The notes under the pieces: generated by a model
Databases searched by the model: none
Seen by the model: only the letters and a program-made list of their open reading frames with translations
Told to the model about the DNA's origin: nothing
In this document: positions 31,548-64,000 of the stretch, piece by piece
Numbering within the stretch: the first letter of the stretch is position 1
How the letters are laid out: each line of letters begins with the position of its first letter
Source: a virus
DNA length: 64,000 nucleotides
Virus record (IMG/VR): IMGVR_UViG_3300034061_000981
Coordinates: 1 to 64,000 of that record
Reading direction: 5' to 3' (one strand)
Program-made: the position numbers and the translations under genes

Positions 31548-32783
31548 ATGGCATATACAATTGTAAAAAGTAATGGTCAAGTCCTGACAACCATTCCTGA
31601 CGGTACTATAAACACCTCTAGTACCTCATTGGCACTCCCTGGTAGAAACTATGCTGGTTATGGTCAATATGTTGACACAAACTTTGTTTGGTTAGCTCAG
31701 AATTTTGCAAATACTAGCCCTCCTCCTAACCCATTACAAGGTCAGTTGTGGTATAACACAAATGCTAACACATTGTATGTTTGCCCGGCTGACGGAACAG
31801 CTAACGCAAATGCATGGTTAGCATTAACAACGACATCTAGTGGTGGAACAACAACGTTTGGAACAGTAACAGTAACTGGAAATATCGCTTCAAATAACAT
31901 GACTGTTACCAATGGTATTACAGCAGACACAATTACAGTACGTTTAGCAACAGTAACAGCTAATGCATCAATTGCAAACGCAAACGTTACTACTGCTAAT
32001 ATAGGAACACTAGAAACTCAAGTTATTACAACCGGAGCCGCAAATGCAGCCGGCACATTAACAGGTACGTGGACTGCAAATGGTGGATTAGCAGGTAATA
32101 CAATGATTGTTACTGGTGGAAACATTTATGCGGCAACTGGTATTAAAGTTAATCCACTTAACTTATATGATTTAACAGGTAATGTAATTACGTTTACTGG
32201 CACTTATACCAATGGTAACGTATTTGATTATCTAACTGGTTCTAATTCTATAACTAGTTTCAATGGAACATTAGGCAGTATAGCAAGACCTATATCAAGT
32301 ATTACAACAGCAAATATTACAACTGGTGGTAATACAACCGGAGGTCAAATAACTGGCAATTGGCAATTAACATCCGGGTCAAGATTACAAGCAACATACG
32401 CTGACTTAGCAGAACGTTTTGAAGCAGATGCATATTACGATGCTGGTACTGTTGTTGAATTGGGTGGTATAAAAGAAATTACATCAGTTCAATATGAATT
32501 ATCAGAAGATGTATTTGGTGTAGTTTCTGATACTGCGGCCTATTTAATGAACTCTGGTGCAGGATCAGATGAAACTCATCCACCAATCGCAGTTTCTGGT
32601 CGTGTTCAAGTTAAAGTTACTGGTATAGTTAAAAAAGGTCAACGTTTAGTAAGTGCAGGCAATGGTATTGCACGTGCGGCATTACCAAGTGAAGCGACTG
32701 CATTTAATACAATCGGTCGTTCATTGGTTGATAAATTAGATGAAAAAGTTGGTACTGTACTAGCGATGGTAACAATAAAATAA
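31548..32783 (+). CDS. Tail fibre protein
   Basis: The protein has 411 residues with typical fibre organisation. Residues 1-90 are an N-terminal attachment-like domain containing NYAGYGQYVDTNFVWLAQNF and NPLQGQLWYNTNANTLYV, which is common at the start of phage fibres. Residues about 100-270 are a Thr/Asn/Ala-rich shaft with short beta repeats (VTVTGNIASNNMTVTNGITA). Residues about 285-411 form a C-terminal domain starting with YADLAERFEADAYYDAGTVV and continuing VFGVVSDTAAYLMNSGAG and HPPIAVSGRVQVKVTG. That end domain is frequent in phage and bacterial fibres and resembles self-cleaving or trimerising tip domains; cleavage cannot be shown here. It probably contributes to host recognition. 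Confidence 0.8.
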   Translation: MAYTIVKSNGQVLTTIPDGTINTSSTSLALPGRNYAGYGQYVDTNFVWLAQNFANTSPPPNPLQGQLWYNTNANTLYVCPADGTANANAWLALTTTSSGGTTTFGTVTVTGNIASNNMTVTNGITADTITVRLATVTANASIANANVTTANIGTLETQVITTGAANAAGTLTGTWTANGGLAGNTMIVTGGNIYAATGIKVNPLNLYDLTGNVITFTGTYTNGNVFDYLTGSNSITSFNGTLGSIARPISSITTANITTGGNTTGGQITGNWQLTSGSRLQATYADLAERFEADAYYDAGTVVELGGIKEITSVQYELSEDVFGVVSDTAAYLMNSGAGSDETHPPIAVSGRVQVKVTGIVKKGQRLVSAGNGIARAALPSEATAFNTIGRSLVDKLDEKVGTVLAMVTIK

Positions 32784-32793
32784 GGAATAAAGA

Positions 32794-33747
32794 ATGTCAT
32801 ACGCACAATTTGATTTAATTCAAGCAACCGACTATAATACATTAGTGGGAACAAACCCCAATACAACGTCAGGTACACTTAATACAGTTTGGTCTACTGG
32901 TGGAACAACTGCCGGTTATGGTCAAACAGCACTTGCTACTGTAGCAGTAGCGCAAATTGTGGGAGCCAACGAATGGGCAAACTTAGTTAATAGAACTTCT
33001 AATTCAGCAACACATCAAGGCACTTCTATCACTAGTGTTACTGCTCCTGTTGCAGGAAATGTTGTAACATTTGTATCTGCTATACCCACAAACTTAACAA
33101 CAATTTATAACAGTCGTCTAAATGCCGCAACACAAGGAGCAACAACTGCAAATACAGCAACATTTGGTAGTACATGGTCAGCCGCATTGACATTTACTCA
33201 TACTGTTACATTTGCTAACGGTGATGCCGCACGATATTTCTTTAATTCAGGCGGACAATTAAAACTAACATGTTCTAATCCTAACAGCACAGCAGGTATT
33301 AACTTATTGTTTAATAACTTATGTTCTAATGTTGGTACAATTGTTCAAAGTGCACCTACTTCTGGTGCAGTAACTATTTCTGGTGTAAGCTATAATGGTA
33401 TTACTAAAATTGGTGGTGGTGGCAATGCTCCTACTATTAGTGCAGGTTCTGGTTATTATGCTATGACTACATCTAACGCTACCGTATTCACACAAACTGC
33501 CTCAACGGGTCCATCTGGTTATTTAGGTACGTTCATTCGTGTAATTGCTAGATCAAACGGTACTCAAGGTTCAAACGGTGATTCTGGTTCTGTTATTACA
33601 CTGCATACGATTTGGGATGAGGTTCCAGATGGTTTAGTAGTTGGTACTGGTTCTGCCGTAACTGTTACAGCCCAAGCTCCAGAAACAACGAATTTGGCTA
33701 ACACTTGGGGAACAATTACTATAGCCGGTTCAGTATCAGGCTCATAA
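32794..33747 (+). CDS. Fibre-like structural protein, tandem paralogue 1
   Basis: The product has 317 residues and is rich in Thr, Asn, Ser and Gly. It starts YAQFDLIQATDYNTLVGTNP and holds the segments SRLNAATQGATTANTATF, FANGDAARYFFNSGGQLKL and FTQTASTGPSGYLGTF. It aligns along its full length with the next gene's product, with a majority of positions identical by eye. The ribosome site is AAGGA, just after the fibre stop. Its position after the tail fibre suggests a fibre tip, adhesin or another exposed virion protein. No catalytic motif was seen. Confidence 0.65.
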   Translation: MSYAQFDLIQATDYNTLVGTNPNTTSGTLNTVWSTGGTTAGYGQTALATVAVAQIVGANEWANLVNRTSNSATHQGTSITSVTAPVAGNVVTFVSAIPTNLTTIYNSRLNAATQGATTANTATFGSTWSAALTFTHTVTFANGDAARYFFNSGGQLKLTCSNPNSTAGINLLFNNLCSNVGTIVQSAPTSGAVTISGVSYNGITKIGGGGNAPTISAGSGYYAMTTSNATVFTQTASTGPSGYLGTFIRVIARSNGTQGSNGDSGSVITLHTIWDEVPDGLVVGTGSAVTVTAQAPETTNLANTWGTITIAGSVSGS

Positions 33748-33768
33748 TTCTAACTAGTACATACTATA

Positions 33769-34728
33769 ATGACTTATGCACTGTACGGCAATATTGCATC
33801 TTTTGATTATAATACTTTAGTTGGAACTAACCCGTCTACTAGTTCAGGTGCATTAAACAGTGTTTGGGCCATTGGTGGAAATAATGCTGGTTATGGTCAA
33901 CCAGCATTAGCGCAAGTCGCATACAGTAGTAGAATTAATTCTTCTAATTGGGCAAATTTAATAAACACTACTGGTACAGTTGCTACACATCAAGGTACCT
34001 CTATTACTAGTATTACTGCGCCCGCTCTCAATGGGCCAATTCCATATATAGCCGCCCTTCCTACTAACTTAACATCTATATATAATAGTAGACTGAATGC
34101 CGCAACTCAAGGTGCTACTACTGCTAATACAGCAACTTACAACAGCACATGGAGCAACGTATTAATATTTACACACACTATTTCTTTTGCAAATGGTGAT
34201 GCCACAAGATACTTCTTTAACGCAGGTGGGCAACTAAAAGTAACATGCTCACATGCTAACAACATTGCAGGTATTAATTTATTAATGCATAATTTAGCAA
34301 GTAATATTGGTACAGTTGTTATGAGTTCCCCAACGTCAGGTTCAATTACTGTATCCGGTGCTAGTTATAATGGTGTTACTAAAGTTGGGGGAGGGTTACC
34401 GGCCCCCACAATTTCACCGGATAAGGGTTATTATGCAATGACTACTGCCAACACTAATATATTCACACAGACAGCCAGCACAGGACCTGCTTACTATTTA
34501 AATACAAATATTTCAATAATTGCTAAATCAAATGGAACACAAGGTTCAAATCAAGATGCCGGTAACGTAATTACACTTTACACCGTTTGGGATGAAATTT
34601 CATTAGGTTCTGTCGCCGTAGTAGGAGCCGGCTCAAGTACTACTGTCACTGTACAAGCACCCGAAACAACAAATTTGGCTAACTCTTGGGGCCCAATAAA
34701 TATTACCGGTACTGTATTCGGTTCATAA
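33769..34728 (+). CDS. Fibre-like structural protein, tandem paralogue 2
   Basis: The product has 319 residues and is a full-length paralogue of the preceding protein. It shares YNTLVGTNP, SRLNAATQGATTANTATY, FANGDATRYFFNAGGQLKV, FTQTASTG and the end QAPETTNLANSWG. Differences are spread through the whole length, so the duplication is not recent. The ATG at 33769 has no clear purine-rich ribosome site. Two related but different exposed proteins side by side would fit variation in receptor binding; that is inference. Confidence 0.65.
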   Translation: MTYALYGNIASFDYNTLVGTNPSTSSGALNSVWAIGGNNAGYGQPALAQVAYSSRINSSNWANLINTTGTVATHQGTSITSITAPALNGPIPYIAALPTNLTSIYNSRLNAATQGATTANTATYNSTWSNVLIFTHTISFANGDATRYFFNAGGQLKVTCSHANNIAGINLLMHNLASNIGTVVMSSPTSGSITVSGASYNGVTKVGGGLPAPTISPDKGYYAMTTANTNIFTQTASTGPAYYLNTNISIIAKSNGTQGSNQDAGNVITLYTVWDEISLGSVAVVGAGSSTTVTVQAPETTNLANSWGPINITGTVFGS

Positions 34729-34776: not shown

Positions 34777-35085
34777 ATGGATACAAAAACATTAATAGCA
34801 GAAGCCAAAGCTCGCTTCGCACATAACTCAGCTAAAGCATATCTTAAAGACAAATATGACAGCAAATTAATTGTTGCTGATCAAGGTGGTCTATGGCGAG
34901 CTGACCGACAAACCATTTCTTTTCTAAATTCAATGAGCAATGACAATTACATTGTTGTAATTGATACCTTTGATAACCCAGTTCAAGTTAGTCGTGAAAA
35001 GTTATTGGAAACATTAACAACTACATATAATGCAGTTATGCTTGAATGGCATAAAGAATGGTCTGAACTAGAGAAAAAAAGATGA
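34777..35085 (+). CDS. Small hypothetical phage protein, 102 residues
   Basis: The product is charged, apparently soluble and mostly helical: TLIAEAKARFAHNSAKAYLK at the start and REKLLETLTTTYNAVMLEWH at the end. A central segment (LIVADQGGLWRADRQTISFL) separates the two. It has a strong AGGAG ribosome site and its own upstream promoter-like motif, and its stop overlaps the next start as ATGA. I do not recognise the family. Position between fibres and glycosyltransferases would suit a fibre-assembly or scaffolding factor, but nothing in the sequence shows this. Confidence 0.6.
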   Translation: MDTKTLIAEAKARFAHNSAKAYLKDKYDSKLIVADQGGLWRADRQTISFLNSMSNDNYIVVIDTFDNPVQVSREKLLETLTTTYNAVMLEWHKEWSELEKKR

Positions 35086-35885
35086 GCAAAGGTGCATTAC
35101 TATTTGCGTTTAATTCACCTAAGTACAACTACTATGAAATGGCAGTTGCTACAGCCAAACGAATTAATCATTTTTTAAATTTACCTGTTACTATAGTGAC
35201 TGATGAAAAGTCATTACCCGACGTTAGTGATTACACTTTTGATAAAACTATTCTAACTACAGCAGATGCGTCTAATAAACGTGATTGGGGAGTTTGGATC
35301 AATAAAGGAAGATTTCAAGCGTATGATTTAAGTCCATACGATGAAACGTTATTGTTAGATACTGATTATATGGTAAATTCTGATAAGTTAATAAAAACAT
35401 TTGAATTACCAACTGATTTTTGTTGCCACGACAATACTAGTTTTTTAATGCACCCCTCGGTTCCACAAGAGGTATTAAGTGTATATAGTTTCAAAACGTT
35501 ATGGGCTACAGCCGTTAATTTTAAGAAAACTAAACGTGCTAAATCAATATTTGATTCGTTAAAAATGATTCAAAATAATTTTGATCATTATGCAAACATA
35601 CATGGATTTATATCAGTTACTTTTCGCAATGATTATGCATTGACTTTAGCAACACGTATTGTCAACGGACACACCACAGTACCTGAAGATATAATACCTT
35701 GGAATTTAGTTCACGTTGGTAAAAATACAACAGTGTATAGAAATAGTGACGACCCATTAAACACCGAATATACTGTTATGTTTGATAATTGGGTTAGGGG
35801 TAAAATTCGTAAAGAATATACTATTATTAAAAATATGGATTTTCATGTTATGAATAAAGAAAACTTTATGGAGTTAATTAAATGA
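35082..35885 (+). CDS. GT-A-type glycosyltransferase-like protein with DTD motif
   Basis: The product has 267 residues. It begins with a Rossmann-like strand (GALLFAFNSPKYNYYEMAVA) and a sugar-nucleotide-binding pattern LPVTIVTDE. The metal-binding DxD-type motif is DTD at residues 93-95 within SPYDETLLLDTDYMV. This is the layout of small GT8-like/GT-A transferases, which move a sugar from a nucleotide sugar to an acceptor. Donor and acceptor cannot be told. It is a paralogue of the next protein (both share SPYDET followed by L..D.DY/MY). It overlaps both neighbours by four bases. Confidence 0.65.
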   Translation: MSKGALLFAFNSPKYNYYEMAVATAKRINHFLNLPVTIVTDEKSLPDVSDYTFDKTILTTADASNKRDWGVWINKGRFQAYDLSPYDETLLLDTDYMVNSDKLIKTFELPTDFCCHDNTSFLMHPSVPQEVLSVYSFKTLWATAVNFKKTKRAKSIFDSLKMIQNNFDHYANIHGFISVTFRNDYALTLATRIVNGHTTVPEDIIPWNLVHVGKNTTVYRNSDDPLNTEYTVMFDNWVRGKIRKEYTIIKNMDFHVMNKENFMELIK

Positions 35886-36637
35886 CAAGAGGATTTGTTA
35901 TTATGGCTCAGGGACAAGATTATGTCAAATGTGCCACTGCTCTTACGGCAAGTATAAAACGAGTTATGCCTAATGCTGATATAACCGTTGTTACTACAAA
36001 AATGTTGCCATATGGTGATCAGGCGCCCAATACTAATTGGAAACTTCAAAATGACTGGCAAGTATATGAAGCAAGTCCATATGACGAAACTATTAAATTA
36101 GAAGCAGATATGTACATACCACGCAACATTGACCACTGGTGGGATATATTGTCACCGCAGGATGTTGTAGTATCTAGTCATATAAGAAACTTTAAACAAG
36201 AAATATCGGATGTTAGAATGTATCGTAGATTTATTGATGACAATAATTTACCTGACGCATATAACGCAATTACATATTTTAAAAAGTCAGACACCGCAAA
36301 ACAATTTTTTAATATTGTAAGAGATGTTTTTGAGAATTGGGAAGAGTATAAGGAAATATTAAAATGTAATCCACAAGAAATAGCAACCACTGATTGGGCA
36401 TATGCTATTGCTTGTCATGTTATGGGCATTGAAAAAACAATGCTACCATCATTTACAGAAATGTCAATGGTACATATGAAACAATATATTAATGGAACAT
36501 CTACTGAAAATTGGACTGATACATTTATATATGAGTGTTTACCAAATCAAATTAGAGTACAAACAGTCCCACAACAGTATCCATTTCACTATCATATTAA
36601 GAACTTTTCTGATAAAATACTTGAAAGTATAAAATGA
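35882..36637 (+). CDS. Glycosyltransferase-like protein with EAD in place of DxD
   Basis: The 251-residue product parallels the upstream protein: GFVIMAQGQDYVKCATALTA, then DITVVTTK, then SPYDETIKLEADMYIP. At the metal-binding position it has EAD (74-76) instead of DTD. This may still bind metal, because ExD variants occur, or may mark a changed or lost activity. The C-terminal half contains CHVMGIEKTMLPSFTEMSMV and ends FHYHIKNFSDKI, resembling the nucleotide-sugar/His region of such transferases. Its start overlaps the upstream stop as ATGA. Confidence 0.58.
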   Translation: MTRGFVIMAQGQDYVKCATALTASIKRVMPNADITVVTTKMLPYGDQAPNTNWKLQNDWQVYEASPYDETIKLEADMYIPRNIDHWWDILSPQDVVVSSHIRNFKQEISDVRMYRRFIDDNNLPDAYNAITYFKKSDTAKQFFNIVRDVFENWEEYKEILKCNPQEIATTDWAYAIACHVMGIEKTMLPSFTEMSMVHMKQYINGTSTENWTDTFIYECLPNQIRVQTVPQQYPFHYHIKNFSDKILESIK

Positions 36638-36990
36638 ACACTGAAAACAACCAAGAAGAATATGTTATAATATGGGAACAGCCCAAGCTAGAACCACCTG
36701 AGTTTAGGTTATATTATGATGAACACGGTGCTGTTGTATGTTACACCGGAGATAAATCTACAACCGGTGATTATATAGTTATTGATGCACTTACATTTGC
36801 ACAAGCAAGACCTGACGTAAGAGTTATCAACGGCAAAATATCTACTGTTTATCCCAATGCGGTTGTGCATAAGTTAATGCCAAGTAAGGATGAGGGGATA
36901 GATTGTCATCCGGAAGATATAAGTATACTTGTTGATAAAAAAGATTACAATAAAAAACAAAAATGGAAACTAACTACATATGAACTCTGA
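36634..36990 (+). CDS. Hypothetical protein, 118 residues
   Basis: The product is acidic and looks soluble. It has strand-rich segments EEYVIIWEQPKLEPPEFRLY, GAVVCYTGD and DYIVIDALTFAQARPDVRVI, and a lysine-rich end (VDKKDYNKKQKWK). No known catalytic motif or membrane segment is visible. It is coupled to both neighbours (ATGA at its start, an 11-base overlap at its end), so it belongs to the glycosyltransferase set. Function unknown. Confidence 0.6.
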   Translation: MNTENNQEEYVIIWEQPKLEPPEFRLYYDEHGAVVCYTGDKSTTGDYIVIDALTFAQARPDVRVINGKISTVYPNAVVHKLMPSKDEGIDCHPEDISILVDKKDYNKKQKWKLTTYEL

Positions 36991-37933
36991 AGATATTATT
37001 GACGTAGCAGATTTAGATTGTATCTATCTAAGCTACGATGAGCCACAGAAAGAAGAATTCTGGCTAAAGATTAAGAACATGGTGCCTTGGGCAAAACGTG
37101 TTGACGGTGTTAAAGGTAGTGATGCCGCACATAAAGCCGCAGGTGAAGCAAGTGATACCGAACGATTTATTTTAATTGACGGTGATAATATGCCTGATGA
37201 AGAATTTTTCAATATTCAATTAAACTTTACTGGTAAAGACCCGTCGTTTAAAAAAGCACAGTTTCGTTGGAAAGCAATAAACGCAATCAACGGTTTACGC
37301 TATGGCAATGGCGGTATGAGTAGCTGGACAAAAGAATACGTTGCTAAAATGAAAACTCACGAACATCAAACAGATGGTGATGTATCACGCATTGCTGACT
37401 TCTGTATGGGAGGCAATGATAATTTGTATTGGGCGATGTATAACTGCTATAGCACAACACATCCTAACTATACGCCATTTCAAGCATGGCGCGCAGGATT
37501 CCGTGAAGGGGTAAAGATGAGTTTAGACAGAGGTGCTAGACCAACAGTAGAACAATTTAAACAAACAGTAGCAACACGTAATTTAAACAATCTAACTATT
37601 TGGCACAACATCGGTCGTGATGTAGAGAACGGAGAGTGGGCTATTTATGGTGCTCGTCTTGGAACGTATATGACTATGTTGACTGAATGGGACCACGCAA
37701 ATGTGCAATGGTTTGATAACTATACAGTATTGTGGGAAGAACATATGAATAGAGACCCTGATCGTGAGTCAGCGTTGCTCGGAGCCGCACTGCATGACAA
37801 ATTGGGACTACCGATGAACCACTTTGACAGTGGACAAAGTAAATTCTTTAAGCGTCACTATAAAGCAGACTTTCATAATTTAGATCCTCTAGTAACTGAG
37901 ATGGATGTGATTCGTAGAATCGAAGGATGGTAA
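36980..37933 (+). CDS. Glycosyltransferase-like protein with DGDN motif
   Basis: The 317-residue product begins with a short Rossmann-like half: LDCIYLSYDEPQKEEFWLKI, then PWAKRVDGVKGSDAAHKAAG, then FILIDGDNMPDEEF. The DGDN motif at residues 67-70 sits where GT-A enzymes carry the metal-binding DxD. The rest is tryptophan-rich (FRWKAINAINGLRYGNGGMS, FCMGGNDNLYWAMYNCYST) and ends with an acidic/aromatic stretch containing WDHANVQWFDNYTVLWEEHM. Best guess is a phage-type glycosyltransferase; the substrate is unknown. It differs in sequence from the two transferases upstream. Confidence 0.55.
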   Translation: MNSEDIIDVADLDCIYLSYDEPQKEEFWLKIKNMVPWAKRVDGVKGSDAAHKAAGEASDTERFILIDGDNMPDEEFFNIQLNFTGKDPSFKKAQFRWKAINAINGLRYGNGGMSSWTKEYVAKMKTHEHQTDGDVSRIADFCMGGNDNLYWAMYNCYSTTHPNYTPFQAWRAGFREGVKMSLDRGARPTVEQFKQTVATRNLNNLTIWHNIGRDVENGEWAIYGARLGTYMTMLTEWDHANVQWFDNYTVLWEEHMNRDPDRESALLGAALHDKLGLPMNHFDSGQSKFFKRHYKADFHNLDPLVTEMDVIRRIEGW

Positions 37934-39327
37934 TGAGTAGCGAACAACAAAGAATTAAAGACATTAAGATTAAGATTGAGAACGAAGCAGGTCCTACATT
38001 TTGTCTTGCTAAATGGCATCACGTAACTATGTATTTGCAATCAGGTGAAACACATAGTTGTTATCACCCACAACCTCATAAAATTCCATTAGAAGAATTG
38101 AAAGATAATCCTTCAGCACTACACAATACACAATTCAAAAAAGATGAACGCAAAATGATGCTGGAAGGTGAAAAGCCAACAGGTTGTCAATATTGCTGGA
38201 ACATTGAAGCAATGGGCCCAGATTATATTAGTGATAGACACATTCGTAATGCTAGTATTTTTACAGAAGAACGCTATGAACAAACAACTAAAGGTGCATG
38301 GAATCAAAATATTAATCCAGAATACTTAGAAATCAACTTTGGTAACGAATGTAATTTCAAGTGCGGTTACTGTCATCCAAAATATTCAACTAGCTTTTAC
38401 AATGAGATTAAGAAGCATGGCCCTGTTACTACAGTAAAGAACCATCGTTGTGATGTTGATTGGATGACATTGTATCAGCGTGAAGAAGAAAACCCATACG
38501 TTGATGCATTCTGGGAGTGGTGGCCCGAACTACGCAAGACATTGAATATTATGCGTGTAACCGGTGGCGAACCTACGATGCACACTAGTACATGGAAATT
38601 GTTAAAAGAAATTGAACAAGATCCTATGCCTTGGTTAGAGTTGAATATAAACAGTAACTTAGGTACTAAGACTGCATTGGTTGAGAAACTAGCGCATAGT
38701 GTTAAAAAATTAGTAGACGATAAAAAAATTCGTGCATTCAAACTATTCACTAGCTTAGATACATGGGGTCCTAAGGCTGAATATATTCGTACAGGATTAG
38801 ATTTAGAATTGTGGGAAAAGAATTTCCATACGTATCTACAGAACACCGACAGCCCAATCACGTTTATGATTACTTTCAATATCTTTAGTGTTACTACATT
38901 TAAAGAATTCTTGGGTAAGTTTTTAGAATGGCGCAAACAATATGGTTGGTATGATGACCGAAAAGAACATCGTGTTCGGTTTGATACCCCTTACTTACGT
39001 GACCCTATTCAATACGATATGAACATTTTACCTAAGGACGAATTTATGCCTTACATGCGTGACGCATTATCATTCATGGAAGCTAATGTAGATGACAATC
39101 GTGCCGACGCATTTACTACTATTGAGTTTGAAAAATTCAAGCGTGTAGTTGACTACATGAATGAAACTAAATACTCAGACACAAAGTTAATTGAAGGTCG
39201 TAGAGATTTCTACAATTGGTTCAATGAATTAGATGAACGCAGGGATACAGATATGTTATCAGTTTTTCCTGAGTATATGAATTTTTATAGACTTTGCCAA
39301 GAAGTTAATCAATTGAATCCAAAATGA
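37933..39327 (+). CDS. Radical SAM enzyme with N-terminal cysteine-rich (twitch-like) domain, copy 1
   Basis: The 464-residue product has the radical SAM cluster motif CNFKCGYC (Cys 140, 144, 147), which binds the 4Fe-4S cluster that cleaves S-adenosylmethionine. It also has the GGE motif (VTGGEPTMHT). Upstream of the core are four further cysteines (24, 43, 85, 88; context HSCYHPQ and GCQYCWNIE), suggesting an auxiliary iron-sulfur or twitch-like domain placed N-terminally. The ATG at 37933 was preferred to the one six bases upstream because it forms TAATG with the upstream stop and has AAGGA before it. This is the most divergent of four tandem paralogues. Its substrate is unknown; related enzymes modify peptides, sugars or cofactors. 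Confidence 0.75.
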   Translation: MSSEQQRIKDIKIKIENEAGPTFCLAKWHHVTMYLQSGETHSCYHPQPHKIPLEELKDNPSALHNTQFKKDERKMMLEGEKPTGCQYCWNIEAMGPDYISDRHIRNASIFTEERYEQTTKGAWNQNINPEYLEINFGNECNFKCGYCHPKYSTSFYNEIKKHGPVTTVKNHRCDVDWMTLYQREEENPYVDAFWEWWPELRKTLNIMRVTGGEPTMHTSTWKLLKEIEQDPMPWLELNINSNLGTKTALVEKLAHSVKKLVDDKKIRAFKLFTSLDTWGPKAEYIRTGLDLELWEKNFHTYLQNTDSPITFMITFNIFSVTTFKEFLGKFLEWRKQYGWYDDRKEHRVRFDTPYLRDPIQYDMNILPKDEFMPYMRDALSFMEANVDDNRADAFTTIEFEKFKRVVDYMNETKYSDTKLIEGRRDFYNWFNELDERRDTDMLSVFPEYMNFYRLCQEVNQLNPK

Positions 39328-40598
39328 GCAAGAAAAAAACTAAAATAACAGTTGAAGATTTATCTACTAGTAAGACACTATGTGTTGTGCCATGGATACA
39401 TATCCACACTAATCCTAGTGGCATTGCTACTCCTTGCTGTATCGCAGAATCGTGCACCAAACCCGAAGGTGTAGGAAACGCACGTGAACAATCATTGATG
39501 GAAATTGTTAATTCTGAATCAATGAAACAATTGCGTTTAGATATGTTAGCCGGAGTTAAAAATTCTGAATGTACCAAATGTTATGAACATGAGGATCAGG
39601 GTATAAAAAGTTTTAGAAATATGATTAACGATGAATTTAGTCATCACTATGATGCTATGAATTCAACAAAGAAAGATGGATCACTCAAAGAATTTAAAAT
39701 GAGATACTTTGATATCCGTTTTAATAACATTTGTAATTTTAAATGTAGAACATGTGGTTCAGGATTTAGTACTCAATGGGAACAAGAAGATTTAAAAAAT
39801 AAAGTTTGGAATGCAAAAGTCATTCCAAAGAATGATAATAAAAAATTCTTAGCAGAGGTAGTGGATCAAATTCCAAATATGGAAACAGCATACTTTGCCG
39901 GTGGCGAGCCACTAATTACCGAAGAACATTATATTCTACTAGAAGAAATGATTCGTAGTGGCAAGACTGATATCAAACTAAGATATAATACTAACTTAAG
40001 CAATCTTAAATTTAAAGACAAAGACCTGTTGTCCTTGTGGAAACACTTTGAAAAGGGTGTAGATGTTTATGCAAGTATTGACCATTACGGTGAACGTGCA
40101 GAATATATTCGTCACGGAACTGATTGGGGTGTAGTTGAATCTAACTTCAACTTAGTTAAAAAAACATCCTTCATAAAACTACACATGAATACCGTATTAA
40201 GTGTATTCAACGTTTTAACTATAAATGAATTCTATCAGTATCTATATGATAATAATATGTACTCAAACAAAGATTCAGTATATATGTTATATAATATGTC
40301 AACTCCGGAATTTTTAGCATGTCATATATTGCCACCTGATTTAAAAATCAAAGCTAAAGAAAGTTTAGAACAGACTGTTAAGTTTTTAAAATCTAAAAAA
40401 TTTAAAGTACACCAAATAAAACAGATAACAGATGCTATTCCTTGGGCTATGTCTAAGGATTCTTGGGAACAACAAAAAATGAATTTTAGAAGTGAAGTCA
40501 AAAGATTAGATAAAATTAGAGATGAAAACTTTAAACAGACATTTCCTGAATTAGCTATGTTATTAGAACCCGAATACAAAAGATTGTGGCCAGTATGA
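39324..40598 (+). CDS. N-twitch-like radical SAM enzyme, copy 2
   Basis: The 424-residue product shows the full family layout. The N-terminal domain has LCVVPWIHIHTNPSG, then TPCC (Cys 20, 38, 39), then ECTKCYEHE (Cys 83, 86), probably ligating an auxiliary cluster. The radical SAM core follows with CNFKCRTC (Cys 137, 141, 144) and YFAGGEPLITEEHY. The segment MKQLRLDMLAG is shared with the next paralogue. It overlaps the upstream gene by four bases. Closely similar to the product at 40595 along most of its length; the reaction is unknown. Confidence 0.78.
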   Translation: MSKKKTKITVEDLSTSKTLCVVPWIHIHTNPSGIATPCCIAESCTKPEGVGNAREQSLMEIVNSESMKQLRLDMLAGVKNSECTKCYEHEDQGIKSFRNMINDEFSHHYDAMNSTKKDGSLKEFKMRYFDIRFNNICNFKCRTCGSGFSTQWEQEDLKNKVWNAKVIPKNDNKKFLAEVVDQIPNMETAYFAGGEPLITEEHYILLEEMIRSGKTDIKLRYNTNLSNLKFKDKDLLSLWKHFEKGVDVYASIDHYGERAEYIRHGTDWGVVESNFNLVKKTSFIKLHMNTVLSVFNVLTINEFYQYLYDNNMYSNKDSVYMLYNMSTPEFLACHILPPDLKIKAKESLEQTVKFLKSKKFKVHQIKQITDAIPWAMSKDSWEQQKMNFRSEVKRLDKIRDENFKQTFPELAMLLEPEYKRLWPV

Positions 40599-41845
40599 AC
40601 AAAGATTATCTATCCAAGATGAACAAAAATTATTTATTAAACGAGAGCAAGACTTTTTGCATGTTCCCTTGGGTACATTTAAATGTGACACCAAAAGGTG
40701 ATATCTATCCTTGCTGTAGTAACGACTACACAAAACCATTTGGTAATACAAAAGAAACTTCATTAAAAGAAGCATTCAACAGTCCGCAAATGAAACAGTT
40801 GCGTTTGGACATGTTAGCTGATAAGAAAAATGATATATGTAACTTTTGTTATAAACACGAAGAAGCAGGACCTCATTCATTTAGAAACTATAGCAAAGAA
40901 CAATTTGCTAAACACTATGATGAAACAATTCCTACAACACTAGATGACGGAACTGTTCCCGAATTCAAAATGCATTATTTTGATATTCGTTTCAGTAATA
41001 TTTGTAACTTTAAATGTAGAACATGCGGGTCAGAGTTTAGTAGTCAATGGGGAGCAGAGATGCGAGCCAATCACGATCCAAAACATCCTATTGTTATTCA
41101 TGCCGATGAAAAGGGTAATCTATTACGTGAAGTATTGGAACAAGTAGAACATATTGATTTAGCATACTTTGCTGGTGGTGAACCTACATTGACCGAAGAA
41201 CATTATATAATGCTTGAAGAAATGATTCGTAAAGGTCGTAGTGATATTGTTCTACGATACAACACTAACGCTAGTAACATTAAGTTCAAAGACTATGACT
41301 TACTAGATATGTGGAAGTACTTTAAAAAGATTGAATTGAGTTGTAGTATTGACCATTATGGTGAAAGAGCAGAATGGTTACGTCATGGAACTGATTGGGG
41401 TGTAGTAGAGTCCAATCTATTAAAGTTCCGTGAACTAGATTATGTTAGTTTTCAAATGAATACGGTATTCAGCATCTTTAACTATAGTACAATCGGTGAG
41501 TTCTATCAGTATTTAAAAGATAAGAATATTATCCGCAGAGAAGATTGGTATCATAGTTTGTACTTGGCTGTACACCCTAGCTATTATTCTGGTAAGAGTT
41601 TGCCCAAAGAATTAAAAGTAGAAGCCGCAGAAAAGGCATTGGCTTGGGCAAAGGCTAATGAAGGTGATGGTACATCACTAAGTAGATTAGTGACTGATGC
41701 TGTAAACTTTGCGGCAGATGATGATACTTGGACTGAAAATAAAGAAACATTCTTTTTACATACAGGTTCAGGAGATAGAATTCGAGGTGAAAGTTTCTGG
41801 AAAACGTTTCCTGAATTAAATAAATTACGTGATTTAACGGAGTAA
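40595..41845 (+). CDS. N-twitch-like radical SAM enzyme, copy 3
   Basis: The product has 416 residues from the ATG at 40595, which overlaps the previous stop as ATGA. A GTG nine bases upstream is a weaker candidate, and another ATG lies at 40619. It has TFCMFPWVHLNVTPKGD, YPCC and ICNFCYKHE in the N-terminal domain, then CNFKCRTC and YFAGGEPTLTEEHYIMLEEM in the radical SAM core. It is the closest relative of copy 2, sharing DWGVVESNxxL and IDHYGERAE. Probably a radical tailoring enzyme acting with its neighbours. Confidence 0.78.
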   Translation: MNKDYLSKMNKNYLLNESKTFCMFPWVHLNVTPKGDIYPCCSNDYTKPFGNTKETSLKEAFNSPQMKQLRLDMLADKKNDICNFCYKHEEAGPHSFRNYSKEQFAKHYDETIPTTLDDGTVPEFKMHYFDIRFSNICNFKCRTCGSEFSSQWGAEMRANHDPKHPIVIHADEKGNLLREVLEQVEHIDLAYFAGGEPTLTEEHYIMLEEMIRKGRSDIVLRYNTNASNIKFKDYDLLDMWKYFKKIELSCSIDHYGERAEWLRHGTDWGVVESNLLKFRELDYVSFQMNTVFSIFNYSTIGEFYQYLKDKNIIRREDWYHSLYLAVHPSYYSGKSLPKELKVEAAEKALAWAKANEGDGTSLSRLVTDAVNFAADDDTWTENKETFFLHTGSGDRIRGESFWKTFPELNKLRDLTE

Positions 41846-41847
41846 TA

Positions 41848-43119
41848 ATGCAAGATTCAATTGTTGTAGAAAATTTAGTAAAACATGGTAAACATTTTTG
41901 TGTGTTACCCTGGGTCCACTTTCATTCATGGCCAGATGGTCGAGTGATGCCATGTTGTGTTGCTGACAGCGGAATGCCTGTAGCTGAAATAAAAGAAGAA
42001 GAATCAATCATCCAAATGATGAATAGTGATGACTTCAAAAAGATTCGTTCAGCTATGCTTAACGATGAACCAGTAGAAGCGTGTAAGCGTTGCTATGACT
42101 TAGAGTTAATGGGTACATGGACAATGCGTCAAAGTCACAATAAGCGCAAAGGTCTTGAATACGTCAAAGAAATTAGTGAAATAACAAGTGATGACGGTAC
42201 CATTAGTGACTTTAAAATGAAATACATGGACTTACGTTTTAGTAACATGTGTAATATGAAATGTCGCAGTTGTGGCCCTGGTTGCTCAAGTCTATGGGCA
42301 CAAGAATTTTTAGACGAACGAGGTGAAGAAGTATTTGAACAATACTTCAAAACAAAAAAGATTGTTATTAACAAAGCAGATGAAGTTGGATTCTTAGCTA
42401 AACTAAAACCATACTTGAAAGACGTTACTGAAGTATATTTTGCTGGTGGTGAAATTATTATTACTCCTGAACACTATGAGTGTTTAGACTATTGGATTGA
42501 TAACGGATTGAACGAACAGATTGAGTTAACATACACAACTAACTTTAGCTCATTGAAGTACAAAGACAAAGACTTAATCGGTTATTGGAAGAAGTTTCCC
42601 AAGCTCAAAATTTGGGCTAGCTTAGACGGCATGGGCGAGACAGCAGAATTGATTCGTAAAGGTACTGACTGGGATCGTATTGTTAAAAACATCAAAGCAG
42701 TTAAAGAACAAGTGCCACATGCTGAGTTCCAAATCACTCCTACAATTAGCATCTGGAATGTGTTCCACTTCCCTGACTTTTTTGACTACATGATTGACAA
42801 TGGGTTCATTGATACTAAGAGTAGCCCGCGTTTTAATCTAGCAACTAATCCATGGTACGCAAACATTATGATTCTTCCTGTGTCTGTTAAGCGCAGACTA
42901 GCTGAATTATATCGTGTATATCAGAACAAGTATAAAGACAACCAAGATATCTATAACGGCTTTAAGATGATTATCTACAATTTGACAGTTGGTGATGAAA
43001 ACAAAGGTGGTATCTTAGAATTTAAACAGTTCAACGATGAGTTGGATCAATTTAGAGATGAGAAGTTTGAGGACATTTGTCCAGAAATTAAAGAGGTATA
43101 TGAATGGGCAAAAAGCTAA
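41848..43119 (+). CDS. N-twitch-like radical SAM enzyme, copy 4
   Basis: The 423-residue product has HFCVLPWVHFHSWPDGRVMP then CC, then ACKRCYDLE, then the core motif CNMKCRSC. The SAM-contacting motif is VYFAGGEIIITPEHY, where copies 2 and 3 have GGEP. It has a good ribosome site (CGGAG at 41838-41842) and starts three bases after the upstream stop codon. More divergent from copies 2 and 3 than they are from each other. Substrate unknown. Confidence 0.78.
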   Translation: MQDSIVVENLVKHGKHFCVLPWVHFHSWPDGRVMPCCVADSGMPVAEIKEEESIIQMMNSDDFKKIRSAMLNDEPVEACKRCYDLELMGTWTMRQSHNKRKGLEYVKEISEITSDDGTISDFKMKYMDLRFSNMCNMKCRSCGPGCSSLWAQEFLDERGEEVFEQYFKTKKIVINKADEVGFLAKLKPYLKDVTEVYFAGGEIIITPEHYECLDYWIDNGLNEQIELTYTTNFSSLKYKDKDLIGYWKKFPKLKIWASLDGMGETAELIRKGTDWDRIVKNIKAVKEQVPHAEFQITPTISIWNVFHFPDFFDYMIDNGFIDTKSSPRFNLATNPWYANIMILPVSVKRRLAELYRVYQNKYKDNQDIYNGFKMIIYNLTVGDENKGGILEFKQFNDELDQFRDEKFEDICPEIKEVYEWAKS

Positions 43120-44072
43120 TAGCGATTGAGGCCCCGCAGCCTTATCTCGCAATTACTTGGCAAGTTAATAACTATTGTAACTTCAAATGTAGTTACTGTA
43201 ATCCAGGTAACTGGGGAGGCACAGATATTAATGATGGTAATTTAGATTTATATATCAACAATTTATCTACTATGATTAGTAAGTATAAAGCCGCCGGCTA
43301 TAAGAACTTTAAGTTCTTCTTTAGCGGTGGAGAACCTACTGCATGGAAGAACTTTATTCCAATATGTGAATGGATTTATAAAGAACTTCCACGTGCTACA
43401 TTAGCAGTCAATACAAATTTAAGTCGCCCGTTGGCGTGGTGGGAAAAGCATTATCATTTGTTTGATGATGTTGTTGCAAGTTACCATGTAGAGTTTAGCG
43501 ATAAAAAACGTTATGAAGAAAATAGTATCTTCTTATGTGATAAAGTCAATTACCTTTCTACAAAAATGTTGATGCATGAGGAAAGATTCTGGGAAGTTGT
43601 TGAGTATGGTAATTATTTGAAAACAGTAATGCCAAACTATTTCTTAGAATGGACTCCGTTGTTTGATGAGATGAGTGTTAATGCAGGTCCATGGCAATAT
43701 AAAGATTCTGCGAAAGAAGCATGGTTGCGTGAACACACTACTGAGATTCAACAAACTAAGCGTAAGCCTATGAAAAGAACAACACTTACTGTTAGTTACA
43801 ATAAATACGATGATAACAGTACAGAAGTATGTAATAGTAATGAAGTTATTGTTGCAGGTAACAATTTCTTCAGTGGCTGGAATTGTAACGTAGGTGATGC
43901 TATCTTTATCAATCCAGTAGGAGAAATGAGTTTAGCAAGTTGCGGTATGGGTGGTTATGTAGGTCACATATTGACTGATATTAACCGTGTAGGACCAAAA
44001 CAAATTGTTTGTGAAAAAGAACACTGCCATTGCGGTACTGATATTATTATACCAAAGTTTTTAGAAGAATAA
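43104..44072 (+). CDS. Radical SAM enzyme with C-terminal cysteine cluster
   Basis: The 322-residue product has the radical SAM motif CNFKCSYC very near the N-terminus (Cys 25, 29, 32) and FFFSGGEPTAWKNF. Unlike its four upstream neighbours it has no N-terminal cysteine domain. Its extra cysteines lie at the C-terminus (NCNVGDAIFI, SCGMGG, CEKEHCHCGTD), consistent with a SPASM- or twitch-type auxiliary cluster. It overlaps the upstream gene by 16 bases, with AAGAGG about eight bases before its start. Likely works in the same pathway as the other radical SAM enzymes. Confidence 0.72.
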   Translation: MGKKLIAIEAPQPYLAITWQVNNYCNFKCSYCNPGNWGGTDINDGNLDLYINNLSTMISKYKAAGYKNFKFFFSGGEPTAWKNFIPICEWIYKELPRATLAVNTNLSRPLAWWEKHYHLFDDVVASYHVEFSDKKRYEENSIFLCDKVNYLSTKMLMHEERFWEVVEYGNYLKTVMPNYFLEWTPLFDEMSVNAGPWQYKDSAKEAWLREHTTEIQQTKRKPMKRTTLTVSYNKYDDNSTEVCNSNEVIVAGNNFFSGWNCNVGDAIFINPVGEMSLASCGMGGYVGHILTDINRVGPKQIVCEKEHCHCGTDIIIPKFLEE

Positions 44073-44073
44073 A

Positions 44074-45393
44074 ATGAGTGATAAAAAAATTAATTTAGTA
44101 TATAATTGGCTTGGTCCTAAAGGTCCTATTCCAAACACAGAGGTACCTAATGTATTACATTTAGCTGCCGTAGGAGAATCAACTACTACTAATAGCCCAA
44201 ACTTTTGGTGTGACAGTATATGGCATTTAATGTTTTGCAACAAACCAGGATATGGTATTAGTAGTGCTGTATTCTTAGGTCTAGATGATGTGTTCATTTA
44301 TCCTTTTTCTATTACATGGAGAATAAATTTTACTTCTTATTTTCATAAAGGTGGAGGGATTTTAGAGTACTCACATACCAATGGTCAACTTAAACATTTA
44401 GTTGCAACTGGCAAAGGGTTTATTTTAATTGAAGATGCCGCAGAAGCTCACATTGAACCATCTCAAATACAAGCAATGCATACATATTTTAATGAGAGTC
44501 ATATTCCCATGAATAAGATAATATATGTTACTGGCTGTATGAATGCACAAGCATTGTATGATGAGTGGTGTCTAATAAATGGAATTAATCATCCTAGGGA
44601 TAAAATGAATATATTATCATATCCCACTTCACAAAATAGTTTAGCAACATATTTTAACGTATGGAACCCTCAAGTTCCTGAATATGATACTGAACGTGTT
44701 CCTGAAAAATTATTTTTATCCTGGAATCGTAGATTTAGACCACATAGAACTGCAATGGCATTTGGTTTAGATAAACTAGGATTAGTAGATAGATCATACT
44801 TAAGTATAGGATTAGTAGACCCGGAAAATTCTGCAATGCACATAACACATACGTTGCAGGATCATTTACTTTATCAACTGGACATACAACCCGAAGATAA
44901 AATTCGTTTTGTAAACAAATTACCATTAGTATTAGATGGTGAAAACGATGTTAATCAAATGTGTCAGGATTTCAATGATGCTACTAGACCCTTTTATCAG
45001 AATAGTTTAGTGAGTCTTGTATCCGAAACAAATTTTTTGGAAAACGAAGTATCATTAACTGAAAAATCATTTAAACCTTTTAAAGAAAAACACCCATTTA
45101 TTACTGTAGGGGTCAACGGTACATTACAAGCATTAAGAGATATGGGATTTATAACGTTTGGAGCCTTTTGGGATGAAAGTTATGATAACATAATTAGCCC
45201 AATAGAGAGAATGGCAGCAATTCTAAATGTATGTAAAGACATTGCTACTTGGGATAGTGAAAAAATTAAAGATTTTAGACGCAGAGTTAAACCTATCTTA
45301 GACCACAATTATGAAATATTAAAAATAGAATATTCATATGTACTTGCGGCTAAGATAAAAGATAGAATATTTGAAATAATAAATAACAAATGA
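44074..45393 (+). CDS. SETxF-family protein 1 (possible GT10-like glycosyltransferase)
   Basis: The 439-residue product contains the landmarks of a family found seven times in this locus: FLSWNRRFRPHRTAMAFGL, then SLVSETNF, then LTEKSFKPFKEKHPFI, then ALRDMGFITFGAFWDESYD, and a final PILDHNYEIL. The order (Arg/His-rich helix, then E....TEK..xP, then PF(I/V)) recalls alpha-1,3-fucosyltransferases of family GT10, whose acceptor/donor region has a TEK motif. The likeness is by eye only. The N-terminal half is specific to this copy (LVYNWLGPKGPIPNTEVPN). It starts one base after the upstream stop. Confidence 0.55.
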   Translation: MSDKKINLVYNWLGPKGPIPNTEVPNVLHLAAVGESTTTNSPNFWCDSIWHLMFCNKPGYGISSAVFLGLDDVFIYPFSITWRINFTSYFHKGGGILEYSHTNGQLKHLVATGKGFILIEDAAEAHIEPSQIQAMHTYFNESHIPMNKIIYVTGCMNAQALYDEWCLINGINHPRDKMNILSYPTSQNSLATYFNVWNPQVPEYDTERVPEKLFLSWNRRFRPHRTAMAFGLDKLGLVDRSYLSIGLVDPENSAMHITHTLQDHLLYQLDIQPEDKIRFVNKLPLVLDGENDVNQMCQDFNDATRPFYQNSLVSLVSETNFLENEVSLTEKSFKPFKEKHPFITVGVNGTLQALRDMGFITFGAFWDESYDNIISPIERMAAILNVCKDIATWDSEKIKDFRRRVKPILDHNYEILKIEYSYVLAAKIKDRIFEIINNK

Positions 45394-46367
45394 AAAAAAT
45401 ATTAGTATGCGGTGCAGGAGGATTCATTGGATCACACCTGGTAGAAAAATTGAAAGAACAAGGTCATTATGTAATAGGTTCTGACCTTCATTATCCGTTA
45501 TACAATGAAACTCCAGCAGATGAGTTTTATATTATGGACTTGCGTGAACAAGAGAATGTTCGTAGATTAATCACTAGTGACATTGATGAGATATACCAAC
45601 TAGCGGCTGATATGGGAGGCGCCGGCTATATCTTTACAGGTGAGCATGATGCTGACATTATGCATAACAGTTGTCAAATCAATTTGAACATATTAGATTC
45701 AATGGTTAAATCCAAGGTTAAAAAAGTTTTCTATAGTTCAAGCGCATGTATGTATCCAAGTCATAATCAGGAAGATCCTGATAATCCTTTATTAGCAGAA
45801 GATAGCGCATATCCTGCAAACCCTGACAGCGAGTATGGTTGGGAGAAACTGTTCTCAGAACGTTTATATATGACATATGGGCGTAACTATAACTTGGACG
45901 TTCGTATCGCACGTTTTCACAACATCTTTGGCCCAAGAGGTTCTTGGGATAATGGTAAAGAAAAAGCACCAGCGGCATTGTGCCGCAAAGTAGCACTATG
46001 CAAAGATGGTGGTGTTATTGACGTATGGGGCCCGGGCAATCAAACACGTTCATTCTTGTTTATTGATGAATGTGTTGAAGGTATGCAACGTATTATGACT
46101 AGTGAGTATACTAAGCCAGTCAATCTAGGTAGCACTAGAATGATTAGTATCAATAACTTAGTTTTACTGATTGCAAAATTAAATGGAAAAAATGTTAATA
46201 TTCGTAACATTGATGGGCCACGCGGTGTTATGGGTCGTAATAGTGACAACAGATTAATTAAAGAAACAATTAATTGGGCACCAGATGAAGATTTAGAATC
46301 AGGCTTAATTAAAACATATAACTGGATTGATGAACAAATTAGTAGAGGCATCAAAGACAACAAATGA
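45390..46367 (+). CDS. NAD-dependent epimerase, GDP-mannose 3,5-epimerase-like
   Basis: The 325-residue product is an extended short-chain dehydrogenase. The NAD-binding motif GAGGFIG is at residues 8-14. It follows the GDP-mannose 3,5-epimerase pattern closely: LAADMGGAGYI, SSSACMYPS (Cys 120), YGWEKL (Tyr 149, Lys 153), RIARFHNIFGP, GKEKAPAALCRK (Lys 192) and TRSFLFIDECVEGM. These include the Cys and Lys used as acid/base in the plant enzyme. The reaction would convert GDP-mannose to GDP-L-galactose or GDP-L-gulose; a related epimerase cannot be excluded. It would supply a nucleotide sugar for the transferases around it. Overlaps the previous stop as ATGA. Confidence 0.82.
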   Translation: MKKILVCGAGGFIGSHLVEKLKEQGHYVIGSDLHYPLYNETPADEFYIMDLREQENVRRLITSDIDEIYQLAADMGGAGYIFTGEHDADIMHNSCQINLNILDSMVKSKVKKVFYSSSACMYPSHNQEDPDNPLLAEDSAYPANPDSEYGWEKLFSERLYMTYGRNYNLDVRIARFHNIFGPRGSWDNGKEKAPAALCRKVALCKDGGVIDVWGPGNQTRSFLFIDECVEGMQRIMTSEYTKPVNLGSTRMISINNLVLLIAKLNGKNVNIRNIDGPRGVMGRNSDNRLIKETINWAPDEDLESGLIKTYNWIDEQISRGIKDNK

Positions 46368-47389: not shown

Positions 47390-48270
47390 CAAAAAAATAT
47401 ATTATTGGTTTAGGATGTAGCTGGACACAAGGTGAAGGTGGTTATCCTGAAGAAATATGGAAACAATATAACGGCAGCCCTCAACGTGCATTAAGATGTA
47501 AAGATGATTACGCTATACGACACTATGAACATGAAAATAGTTGGGTTAACGTATTATGTCGTGACCACTTCCCTGAATATGAACCTGTTAATCTAGGTGT
47601 CAAAGGTATAGGTAATCGTGCGGCGGTAGGACAATTACATTTTTGTGATAAAGTAGACTTTAACAATAGTACTGGTATTATTGTATTAATGTTAAGTGGT
47701 TTTGAAAGATTAGATTTGTTCCAGCAATATCCACATACTAGTGACGGGCAGAATGATTTTTATTCTAAGAATGAATTTCGTCATTATAAATGGAGAACAG
47801 CATGGCCAATTCCAAATCATAGTACAGGCGATACATCATACTGGGATGTGTATGCTAGAGAATTATGGAGTGAACAGTTTGTCTCCGCACATCAAATGTG
47901 TAATTTATTAGAACTACAAACGTTTGCAAAAGCATATGGGTATAAAGTTGTTGTGGCTAATGGATTTAATCAACGGCAAGAGGGTATTAAACAATACCTA
48001 CGTGATAATGCAGGTTATTTAGTTGATAAATTTGATTGGTCAACGTATATACATGATACTACTCCATATTCCGCTTTTGTACAAAAGCTAGTAGAACTTG
48101 ATGGACTAATTCAACCTGAGCATTGGGGTGGATTCCATCAATATTATAGTCAGCGTGATTGGCCTGCTAAATACTTGACAAACTGTGACGGAGCACATCC
48201 TACAGTAGATGGTTATAAAGCAATAGGAAGTGAACTTGCACGGTTTATCAAATTACGCGGATATGTCTAA
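47386..48270 (+). CDS. SGNH-hydrolase-like protein 1
   Basis: The 294-residue product has the SGNH blocks: GLGCSWTQGEG near the N-terminus (probable nucleophile Ser 12), NLGVKGIGNRAAVGQ in the position of the Gly/Asn blocks, and CDGAHPTVDGYKAIGSELA at the end, with Asp 268 and His 271 in the usual D..H pattern. Such enzymes hydrolyse or transfer acyl groups, for example on polysaccharides or lipids. The classical first block is GDS; here it is GCS, as in the two other SGNH-like proteins of the window. It lies between SETxF and radical SAM genes. Confidence 0.7.
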   Translation: MTKKYIIGLGCSWTQGEGGYPEEIWKQYNGSPQRALRCKDDYAIRHYEHENSWVNVLCRDHFPEYEPVNLGVKGIGNRAAVGQLHFCDKVDFNNSTGIIVLMLSGFERLDLFQQYPHTSDGQNDFYSKNEFRHYKWRTAWPIPNHSTGDTSYWDVYARELWSEQFVSAHQMCNLLELQTFAKAYGYKVVVANGFNQRQEGIKQYLRDNAGYLVDKFDWSTYIHDTTPYSAFVQKLVELDGLIQPEHWGGFHQYYSQRDWPAKYLTNCDGAHPTVDGYKAIGSELARFIKLRGYV

Positions 48271-63669: not shown

Positions 63670-63754
63670 ATGGTTTAAAAATTTAGTTAGAGAATACAAG
63701 TACCGCAAGCGCATTAAAGAATTACGCAAACGAGATCCATTTATTTACAAATGA
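63656..63754 (+). CDS. Very small basic protein, 32 residues
   Basis: The frame MFIVRWFKNLVREYKYRKRI continues to RKRDPFIYK, and is strongly basic with an amphipathic helix. It has a good ribosome site (AGGAG at 63644-63648), overlaps the upstream gene by 14 bases and the next start as ATGA. I recall similar short basic proteins in related phages, but the function is unknown. A longer in-frame reading from 63491 lies inside the SGNH gene and was not used. Confidence 0.55.
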   Translation: MFIVRWFKNLVREYKYRKRIKELRKRDPFIYK

Positions 63755-64000
63755 ACTATATCGGTATAAGTGCAGGCTTCCATGATGCGGCCCTAAGCGT
63801 CATAGATAGTAACGGCAATATTGTCTTTGCTGGTCATAGTGAACGCTACAGCAAACAAAAACATGACAAACATTTGTCAATGGGTATTGTTGAGGATGCG
63901 TTAACTTATTGTAACGATGAAGTTGAGATTCACTATTACGAACGTCCAGGGATGAAGTTTTTGCGACAATTACGTTCAGGTGAAAAGCCTAAACTATCTA
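63751..64000 (+). CDS. Carbamoyltransferase (NodU/CmcH family), 3' partial
   Basis: The first 83 residues are visible. MNYIGISAGFHDAALSVID, then NIVFAGHSERYSKQKHDK, is the N-terminal signature of NodU/CmcH/TobZ-type O-carbamoyltransferases (in full-length proteins, GIS..HD.A and EERFxRxKHD-like). These move a carbamoyl group from carbamoyl phosphate to a sugar hydroxyl through carbamoyl-adenylate. The gene continues past the window end. It starts inside the previous stop (ATGA). Confidence 0.82.
   Translation, partial: MNYIGISAGFHDAALSVIDSNGNIVFAGHSERYSKQKHDKHLSMGIVEDALTYCNDEVEIHYYERPGMKFLRQLRSGEKPKLS

Follow-up and report, generated by a model that had tools for sequence, protein, structure and literature searches.

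Four diverged N-twitch radical SAM genes form an ordered array of exchangeable cargo in an island of a T4-like phage

Introduction

Why does a phage carry four adjacent genes for radical S-adenosylmethionine (SAM) enzymes in the vicinity of its tail-fibre-like genes, and what would these enzymes act on? The question is raised by IMG/VR virus record IMGVR_UViG_3300034061_000981 (107,619 bp), of which positions 1-64000 constitute the window analysed here, its genes being labelled by their start coordinates. A preliminary description of this window, made from the letters alone, had recognised four tandem paralogous radical SAM genes with N-terminal cysteine domains and had proposed that the array is maintained in tandem with divergence between the copies, perhaps because they act on different substrates or in successive steps.

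Results

The four genes encode complete N-twitch radical SAM proteins

The array consists of the following genes:

37927 (or 37933)..39327, + strand: copy 1 (group A), N-twitch radical SAM protein of 466 amino acids (aa); NF033640 320 bits, E 2.4e-95
39324..40598, + strand: copy 2 (group B2), N-twitch radical SAM protein of 424 aa; NF033640 384 bits, E 7.8e-115
40586..41845, + strand: copy 3 (group B3), N-twitch radical SAM protein of 419 aa; NF033640 371 bits, E 1e-110
41848..43119, + strand: copy 4 (group B4), N-twitch radical SAM protein of 423 aa; NF033640 370 bits, E 1.7e-110

The ends of neighbouring copies overlap or lie 2 bases apart, and all four genes are on the same strand. As the preliminary description had anticipated, they are tandem paralogues with N-terminal cysteine domains: the NCBIfam model NF033640 (N_Twi_rSAM) matches each of them near its full length, and their scores of 320-384 bits place all four in the family by its curated cut-off of 170 bits. 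The name returned for NF033640 assigns no function to this N-twitch radical SAM family. The superfamily motifs CxxxCxxC and GGE are found in all four copies and are invariant across groups A, B2, B3 and B4, and every copy has its N-terminal cysteines, so that a loss of catalytic cysteines, which would have spoken against four working enzymes, was looked for and not observed. In copy 1 the auxiliary cysteines are C26, C45, C87 and C90, the core cysteines C142/C146/C149 and the GGE motif residues 213-215; in copy 3 the corresponding cysteines are C25, C43, C44, C85 and C88, and C140/C144/C147.

The N-terminal domain is less uniform than initially thought. The shared signature PWxHxH...CC holds for copies 2-4 (PWxH plus CC), whereas copy 1 reads AKWHH with a single cysteine (SCYHP), a serine taking in group A the place of the first cysteine of the group B pair; group B retains five N-terminal cysteines and group A four (conserved C26/C45/C87/C90). 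The Pfam SPASM domain PF13186 was located at N-terminal residues ~18-88 of copies 2-4, and copy 1 itself did not reach it in the Pfam search. This Cys-rich SPASM/twitch-type domain lies ahead of the radical SAM core, as in NF033640, and not C-terminal to the core, as in classical SPASM/twitch enzymes. A profile of the B copies matched their N-terminal domain to the twitch domain at the C-terminus of BtrN (E 4e-7), which suggests that the auxiliary-cluster domain has been relocated to the N-terminus; only the twitch domain aligns significantly, and no full-length similarity to BtrN was found.

The copies are anciently diverged and under purifying selection

The earlier impression that copies 2 and 3 are close and copies 1 and 4 divergent agrees with the pairwise identities, which are 48% between copies 2 and 3, 31% between copies 3 and 4, and 21-23% between copy 1 and the others. 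In a tree of 87 rows from viral and bacterial loci, the proteins were resolved into the clades A, B2, B3 and B4, with Shimodaira-Hasegawa-like approximate likelihood ratio test (SH-aLRT) supports of 99, 99, 99 and 100, respectively. B2 and B3 are sister clades, adjacent to a single-B clade of minimal A+B arrays, and the clade order is conserved among many uncultivated phages. Since both A-type and B-type proteins are found in Bdellovibrionota genomes, the A/B split predates the phage array.

Approximate ratios of nonsynonymous to synonymous substitution rates (dN/dS) between the window and its relatives, with high dS, lay at 0.02-0.07 in copies 1, 3 and 4 and reached 0.10-0.11 in copy 2, and the least saturated comparison gave 0.031, 0.102, 0.034 and 0.018 for copies 1 to 4. 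Every copy is therefore under purifying selection, and copy 2 is the fastest evolving. Recent duplication of near-identical copies, which would have undermined the idea of a maintained array, is ruled out by the clade supports of 99-100 and dN/dS values of 0.02-0.11; the four orthologous clades, their conserved order and the purifying selection instead bear that idea out.

Divergence of the active site was judged from fixed alignment columns. Thirty-four positions are conserved and identical across groups A, B2, B3 and B4, and 15 more fixed columns vary by group, separating A from B and B4 from B2/B3; some of these group-specific differences fall near SAM/substrate barrel strands. Residues of interest for the pockets include T230, T297 and T299 of copy 4, as compared with N226, N292 and V294 of copy 3. 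Fixed differences were thus found between A and B and between B4 and the B2-B3 pair, but not within that pair, for which the alignment of the four groups contained zero distinguishing fixed columns. Because no such column separates them, copies 2 and 3 may share a chemistry.

The array is exchangeable cargo in a fixed frame

The 107.6-kb record is that of a large T4-like myovirus of aquatic bacteria, an assignment based on its large terminase, which recruits many related phage records, and on the UvsX-, UvsW- and gp32-like proteins and thymidylate synthase that a reading of the sequence finds encoded past the 64-kb stretch. The island that contains the array is bordered as follows:

31548..34728, + strand: tail-fibre-like genes adjoining the island; 31548 has PHROG virion structural/tail fibre matches; conserved in related phages
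34777..36990, + strand: left frame, genes 34777 (102 aa), 35082, 35882 and 36634 (118 aa); 47-83% identical in cargo-swapped relatives
63751..64000, continuing to 65244 outside the window, + strand: carbamoyltransferase (PF02543/PF16861), start of the right frame
65255-70945 of the record (locus L007, 1756-7446): 1896-aa repeat protein after the carbamoyltransferase, closing the island's right side

Frame and cargo were compared in five related phage records (G003, G004, G006, G007 and G009). The frame genes 34777-36980 are 47-86% identical to those of the window in all five, the carbamoyltransferase 63751 is 81-82% identical in G004 and G006, and the giant gene 65255 is 50-52% identical in G003, G004 and G006, where the stretch was covered. 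In contrast, the genes between the frames are missing or merely ~23-38% identical in the five records. In the same slot, G006 carries about 13 N-twitch genes in a ~20-kb run, G003 and G004 a mixture of N-twitch and short radical SAM genes, and G007 and G009 a single A-type gene followed by other genes. Inspection of G006 (L312/L313, 38135-58476) located ~12 N-twitch genes nearly unbroken at 42094-58476 and one at 38135. Among 16 phage records picked by terminase, and not by radical SAM genes, 9 contain the N-twitch family. The four-gene array is thus swappable cargo in a fixed frame beside tail-fibre genes.

Such frequent swapping, with a copy number ranging from 1 to ~13, could also be expected if the array had no selected function and drifted as a by-product of recombination, the island being hypervariable. 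This explanation is contradicted by dN/dS values well below 1, which indicate strong purifying selection on each copy, and by the invariant catalytic residues and fixed gene order, and we regard it as extremely improbable.

As to the frame genes themselves, 35082 and 35882 appear by eye to be glycosyltransferase-like, with an invariant DxD in 35082 (D93, D95). The 65255 protein consists of many ~75-aa repeats (FDFSWHPDP...PPYIYxFGTQW...GATExKY), varies in length from 1234 to 1896 aa between phages and resembles by eye the glycosyltransferase 36980 at its C-terminus; Pfam, PHROG and PDB all returned no match for it.

Gene 43104 is coupled to copy 4 and gene 36980 to copy 1

Two further genes accompany the array:

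36980..37933, + strand: putative GT-A-type glycosyltransferase; DxD 67-69; weak GT2 matches in several homologues
43104..44072, + strand: fifth radical SAM gene, 322 aa; Cys-rich (twitch-like) C-terminal tail, without N-terminal domain

The count of four, correct for the N-twitch genes, had thus missed a fifth radical SAM gene directly after copy 4. Its PF04055 score (24.3 bits) is below the cut-off of 29.5, and CxxxCxxC and GGE are invariant in its family. Array order was determined from 74 non-redundant loci that contain copy 1 and 7 kb or more of downstream sequence; here and below the viral contigs are related fragments, and the counts describe the matches listed, not prevalence. Arrays range from copy 1 alone to five genes, e.g. 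A-B2-B3-B3-B4. Gene 43104 directly follows B4 in 27/27 complete arrays ending in B4, and it is present in all 30 loci with B4 as compared with 22 of the 44 without (Fisher p 8e-7, indicative because the loci are related). Distant relatives of 43104 also come after N-twitch genes in Bdellovibrionota (loci L096, L102 and L116). In the one of L116 (12090-13103, Bacteriovoracaceae), the Cys-rich tail domain is apparently N-terminal and not C-terminal, which appears to be a second change of domain order among these radical SAM proteins.

On the other side of the array, copy 1 is immediately preceded by a homologue of 36980 in 85 of 104 loci. A profile search of the PDB returned no credible match for 36980 or for 35082. 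The SETxF family (family hidden Markov model A8), whose co-occurrence with the array had been put forward as a check, is present in 77 of the 79 viral loci bearing copy 1; the association is not obligatory, since N-twitch arrays without SETxF occur in related phages and in bacteria.

In a close relative, a fifth N-twitch gene (L319, 8932-10188; record G001, 18931-20187) lies outside the island, near the terminase region, adjoining DegT and epimerase genes; the comparable place in the window's record holds a short radical SAM gene (84646-85626, - strand).

The remaining cargo encodes tailoring enzymes

Downstream of 43104 the cargo continues with these genes:

44074..45393, + strand: SETxF-family protein (family model A8); more at 46364, 50187, 52135, 53129, 55365 and 61142
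45390..46367, + strand: NAD-dependent sugar epimerase/dehydratase (PF01370, E 8.8e-43)
48230..50200, + strand: B12-binding radical SAM enzyme, nearest to KedN5-type C-methyltransferases, below their cut-off
54172..55365, + strand: UDP-glucose/GDP-mannose dehydrogenase family (PF03721 and PF00984)
57315..59597, + strand: second B12-binding radical SAM protein (PF04055 and PF02310)
59594..60184, + strand: mini DegT/DnrJ/EryC1/StrS aminotransferase, 196 aa; 54% identical to a Synechococcus phage S-SCSM2R protein
60174..61145, + strand: StrB1-type inosamine-phosphate amidinotransferase; best PDB match 1bwd, E 6.9e-63, next 9e-36

The amidinotransferase retains the GGxFHC catalytic-cysteine motif, and the aminotransferase 59594 is also present in 16 of the 17 loci that contain it. 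Cyanophage S-SCSM2R encodes both the amidinotransferase (57% identical) and the aminotransferase, in a neighbourhood that also has a radical SAM gene and several genes for glycosyltransferases. The aminotransferase is unusually short (196 aa versus ~360), with the pyridoxal phosphate-lysine region apparently kept. For the SETxF proteins, assignment through Pfam or PDB profiles yielded no credible relative.

Elsewhere in the record, positions 72631-74721 were read as encoding a porin-like protein of the outer membrane and, after it, AhpC- and AhpD-like antioxidant proteins, a content that suggests a Gram-negative, possibly betaproteobacterial, host. One open reading frame (ORF) of 6408 aa occupies 11503-30729 of the window, with baseplate/tail-type genes on one side and tail-fibre-like genes on the other. 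A motif search for the T4-type late promoter TATAAATA detected none ahead of the four-gene array. This core occurs 3 times in the window versus 15.6 expected, with at least 3 in all 100 shuffles, and therefore seems depleted, i.e. rarer than chance.

Discussion

We propose that the copies are functional N-twitch enzymes and the core of an exchangeable cargo that tailors sugars or aminocyclitols for the decoration of virion fibres or of the host surface, a proposal to which we assign a probability of about 0.5. Its established part comprises the family, motifs, orthology, order, purifying selection, cargo swap and neighbouring enzymes; the substrate class, redox chemistry, pairwise action and product destination are what we infer. 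Sugars or aminocyclitols are suggested by the nearby epimerase, UDP-sugar dehydrogenase, StrS-type aminotransferase, StrB1-type amidinotransferase and carbamoyltransferase, and the proximity of tail-fibre genes, together with the glycosyltransferases of the frame, points to decoration of the virion or host surface.

From an island lying between the tail-fibre/glycosyltransferase frame and the carbamoyltransferase/giant-protein frame, each enzyme would use its CxxxCxxC [4Fe-4S] cluster to generate a 5'-deoxyadenosyl radical, and the SPASM/twitch-type domain at the N-terminus would house an auxiliary [4Fe-4S] cluster capable of accepting an electron, by analogy with BtrN-type dehydrogenases. Copy 1 would act in a branch tied to the glycosyltransferase 36980 and copy 4 with the radical SAM protein 43104 as its partner, and copies 2 and 3, given their shared fixed active-site residues, would probably catalyse similar reactions that differ in substrate or position. 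The likeliest substrates would be sugars or aminocyclitols that are oxidised, epimerised, aminated, guanidinylated, methylated and carbamoylated. Butirosin and streptomycin synthesis provide a chemically sensible series on aminocyclitols, in which BtrN is the radical SAM dehydrogenase and the other members are a StrS-type aminotransferase and an amidinotransferase; the likeness of the island enzymes to that series is an analogy and not a demonstration. More speculatively, and in our estimate rather unlikely, the island might be an exchangeable locus like a bacterial O-antigen locus, in which up to ~13 radical SAM enzymes, each responsible for one step or position, build an amino- or guanidino-cyclitol-like decoration.

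AlphaFold2 models of copies 1 and 3 were confident (predicted local distance difference test scores of 94.3 and 95.0), and a fold search of the PDB with them bears on two other explanations. Copy 1 retrieved SkfB first and also BlsE, AprD4 and viperin, and copy 3 retrieved viperin, CteB, anSME and SuiB; none is a close structural relative, the TM scores normalised by query being at most 0.35 and 0.39, respectively. SkfB at the head of the list for copy 1, and CteB, SuiB and anSME among the best folds for copy 3, would suit SPASM-type maturases that modify proteins or peptides, acting on the adjoining tail fibres or on a small neighbour such as the 118-aa product of 36634, two genes upstream of copy 1. 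Nevertheless, the array is surrounded by sugar-type tailoring genes, copy 1 has a putative glycosyltransferase as its conserved neighbour, and a longer ORF takes the place of 36634 in many other phages. No precursor-like peptide was found within the array, where overlapping or abutting genes leave no room for one; the product of the upstream 36634 may be a substrate. On balance, maturation of peptides or fibres appears doubtful to us.

The viperin matches, in turn, bear on the idea that the enzymes serve counter-defence or host takeover by making or altering a small metabolite that resembles a nucleotide. The radical SAM core is indeed viperin-like in weak profile and fold matches, and relatives in Vibrio phage KVP40 lie near NAD-salvage and QueC-like genes. 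However, copies 1-4 score 20-28 bits against the viperin model NF038283, whose cut-off is 180, so that identity as viperins was rejected; viperins lack the N-terminal domain, and the setting is glycan-like and not the phage's nucleotide-metabolism region. We consider this role highly unlikely.

The tailoring of sugars or aminocyclitols, which we favour, has several points against it. Its substrate class is deduced, and the glycosyltransferase assignment of 36980 is weak. The aminotransferase/amidinotransferase sub-cassette is limited to 17 of the 101 loci bearing copy 1, many being truncated, and hence need not act with the array. The remote folds retrieved by the predicted models are split between nucleotide-modifying viperins and peptide maturases, and would neither fix a substrate class nor discriminate a sugar from a peptide reading. 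Finally, the bacterial neighbours of the N-twitch family are mixed, and a search for function among them gave no theme beyond further radical SAM genes.

If the products do decorate the surface or virion, radical SAM chemistry would be tied to phage host range and superinfection, at a fixed-frame, swapped-cargo locus that lies next to tail fibres in many uncultivated phages. The arrays also offer testable rules, namely the copy order, the B4-43104 and copy 1-36980 pairs, and the fast-evolving copy 2.

Comparison with known systems

NF033640 (N_Twi_rSAM) proteins have the same domain order as copies 1-4; the family is here split into four ordered phage orthologue groups, with the further radical SAM gene 43104 coupled to them. 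BtrN (2-deoxy-scyllo-inosamine dehydrogenase; PDB 4m7s, 4m7t) shares the radical SAM core and the twitch-type auxiliary-cluster domain family, but its domain is C-terminal, the remainder is little similar, and 4m7s/4m7t comprise ~270 aa versus 419-466 aa for the copies.

Swappable radical SAM modules are already known as a general phenomenon in T4-like phages. Campylobacter phages CP220/CPt10 (T4-like) contain a block that close phages exchange and that combines five radical SAM genes with an amidinotransferase (PMC2853527), and the window resembles them in exchanging a radical-SAM-rich block with an amidinotransferase as a unit in a conserved frame. CP220 additionally has sugar-transferase-fold genes. 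The CP220/CPt10 radical SAM proteins are shorter than the copies and several match the 43104 profile, but none matched the B profile, so that they were rejected as members of the N-twitch family. In pelagimyophages, a hypervariable host recognition cluster (tail fibre, glycosyltransferase) acquires radical SAM cassettes, with no family assignment, array order or per-enzyme analysis found in the parts of the report consulted (PMC7029224). In the literature searched we found no description of an orthologous N-twitch array in conserved order, of its link with 43104 or of the contrast between fixed frame and swapped cargo.

The preliminary description had overlooked the swappable cargo of the island, the B4-43104 coupling and the relatives in cultured phages. 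A near absence from cultured phages, first indicated by tblastn of INPHARED with copy 3, was overturned by the copy 4 query, which retrieved KVP40-type relatives. Proteins 0260, 0261 and 0272 of the cultured T4-like phage KVP40 are N-twitch-type (47-80 bits to the B profile), and relatives of KVP40 also encode such proteins; they are distant, lie outside this array type and have other neighbours. KVP40, which infects Vibrio, and phages with CP220-type modules could serve as test systems for the proposed link to host range and superinfection.

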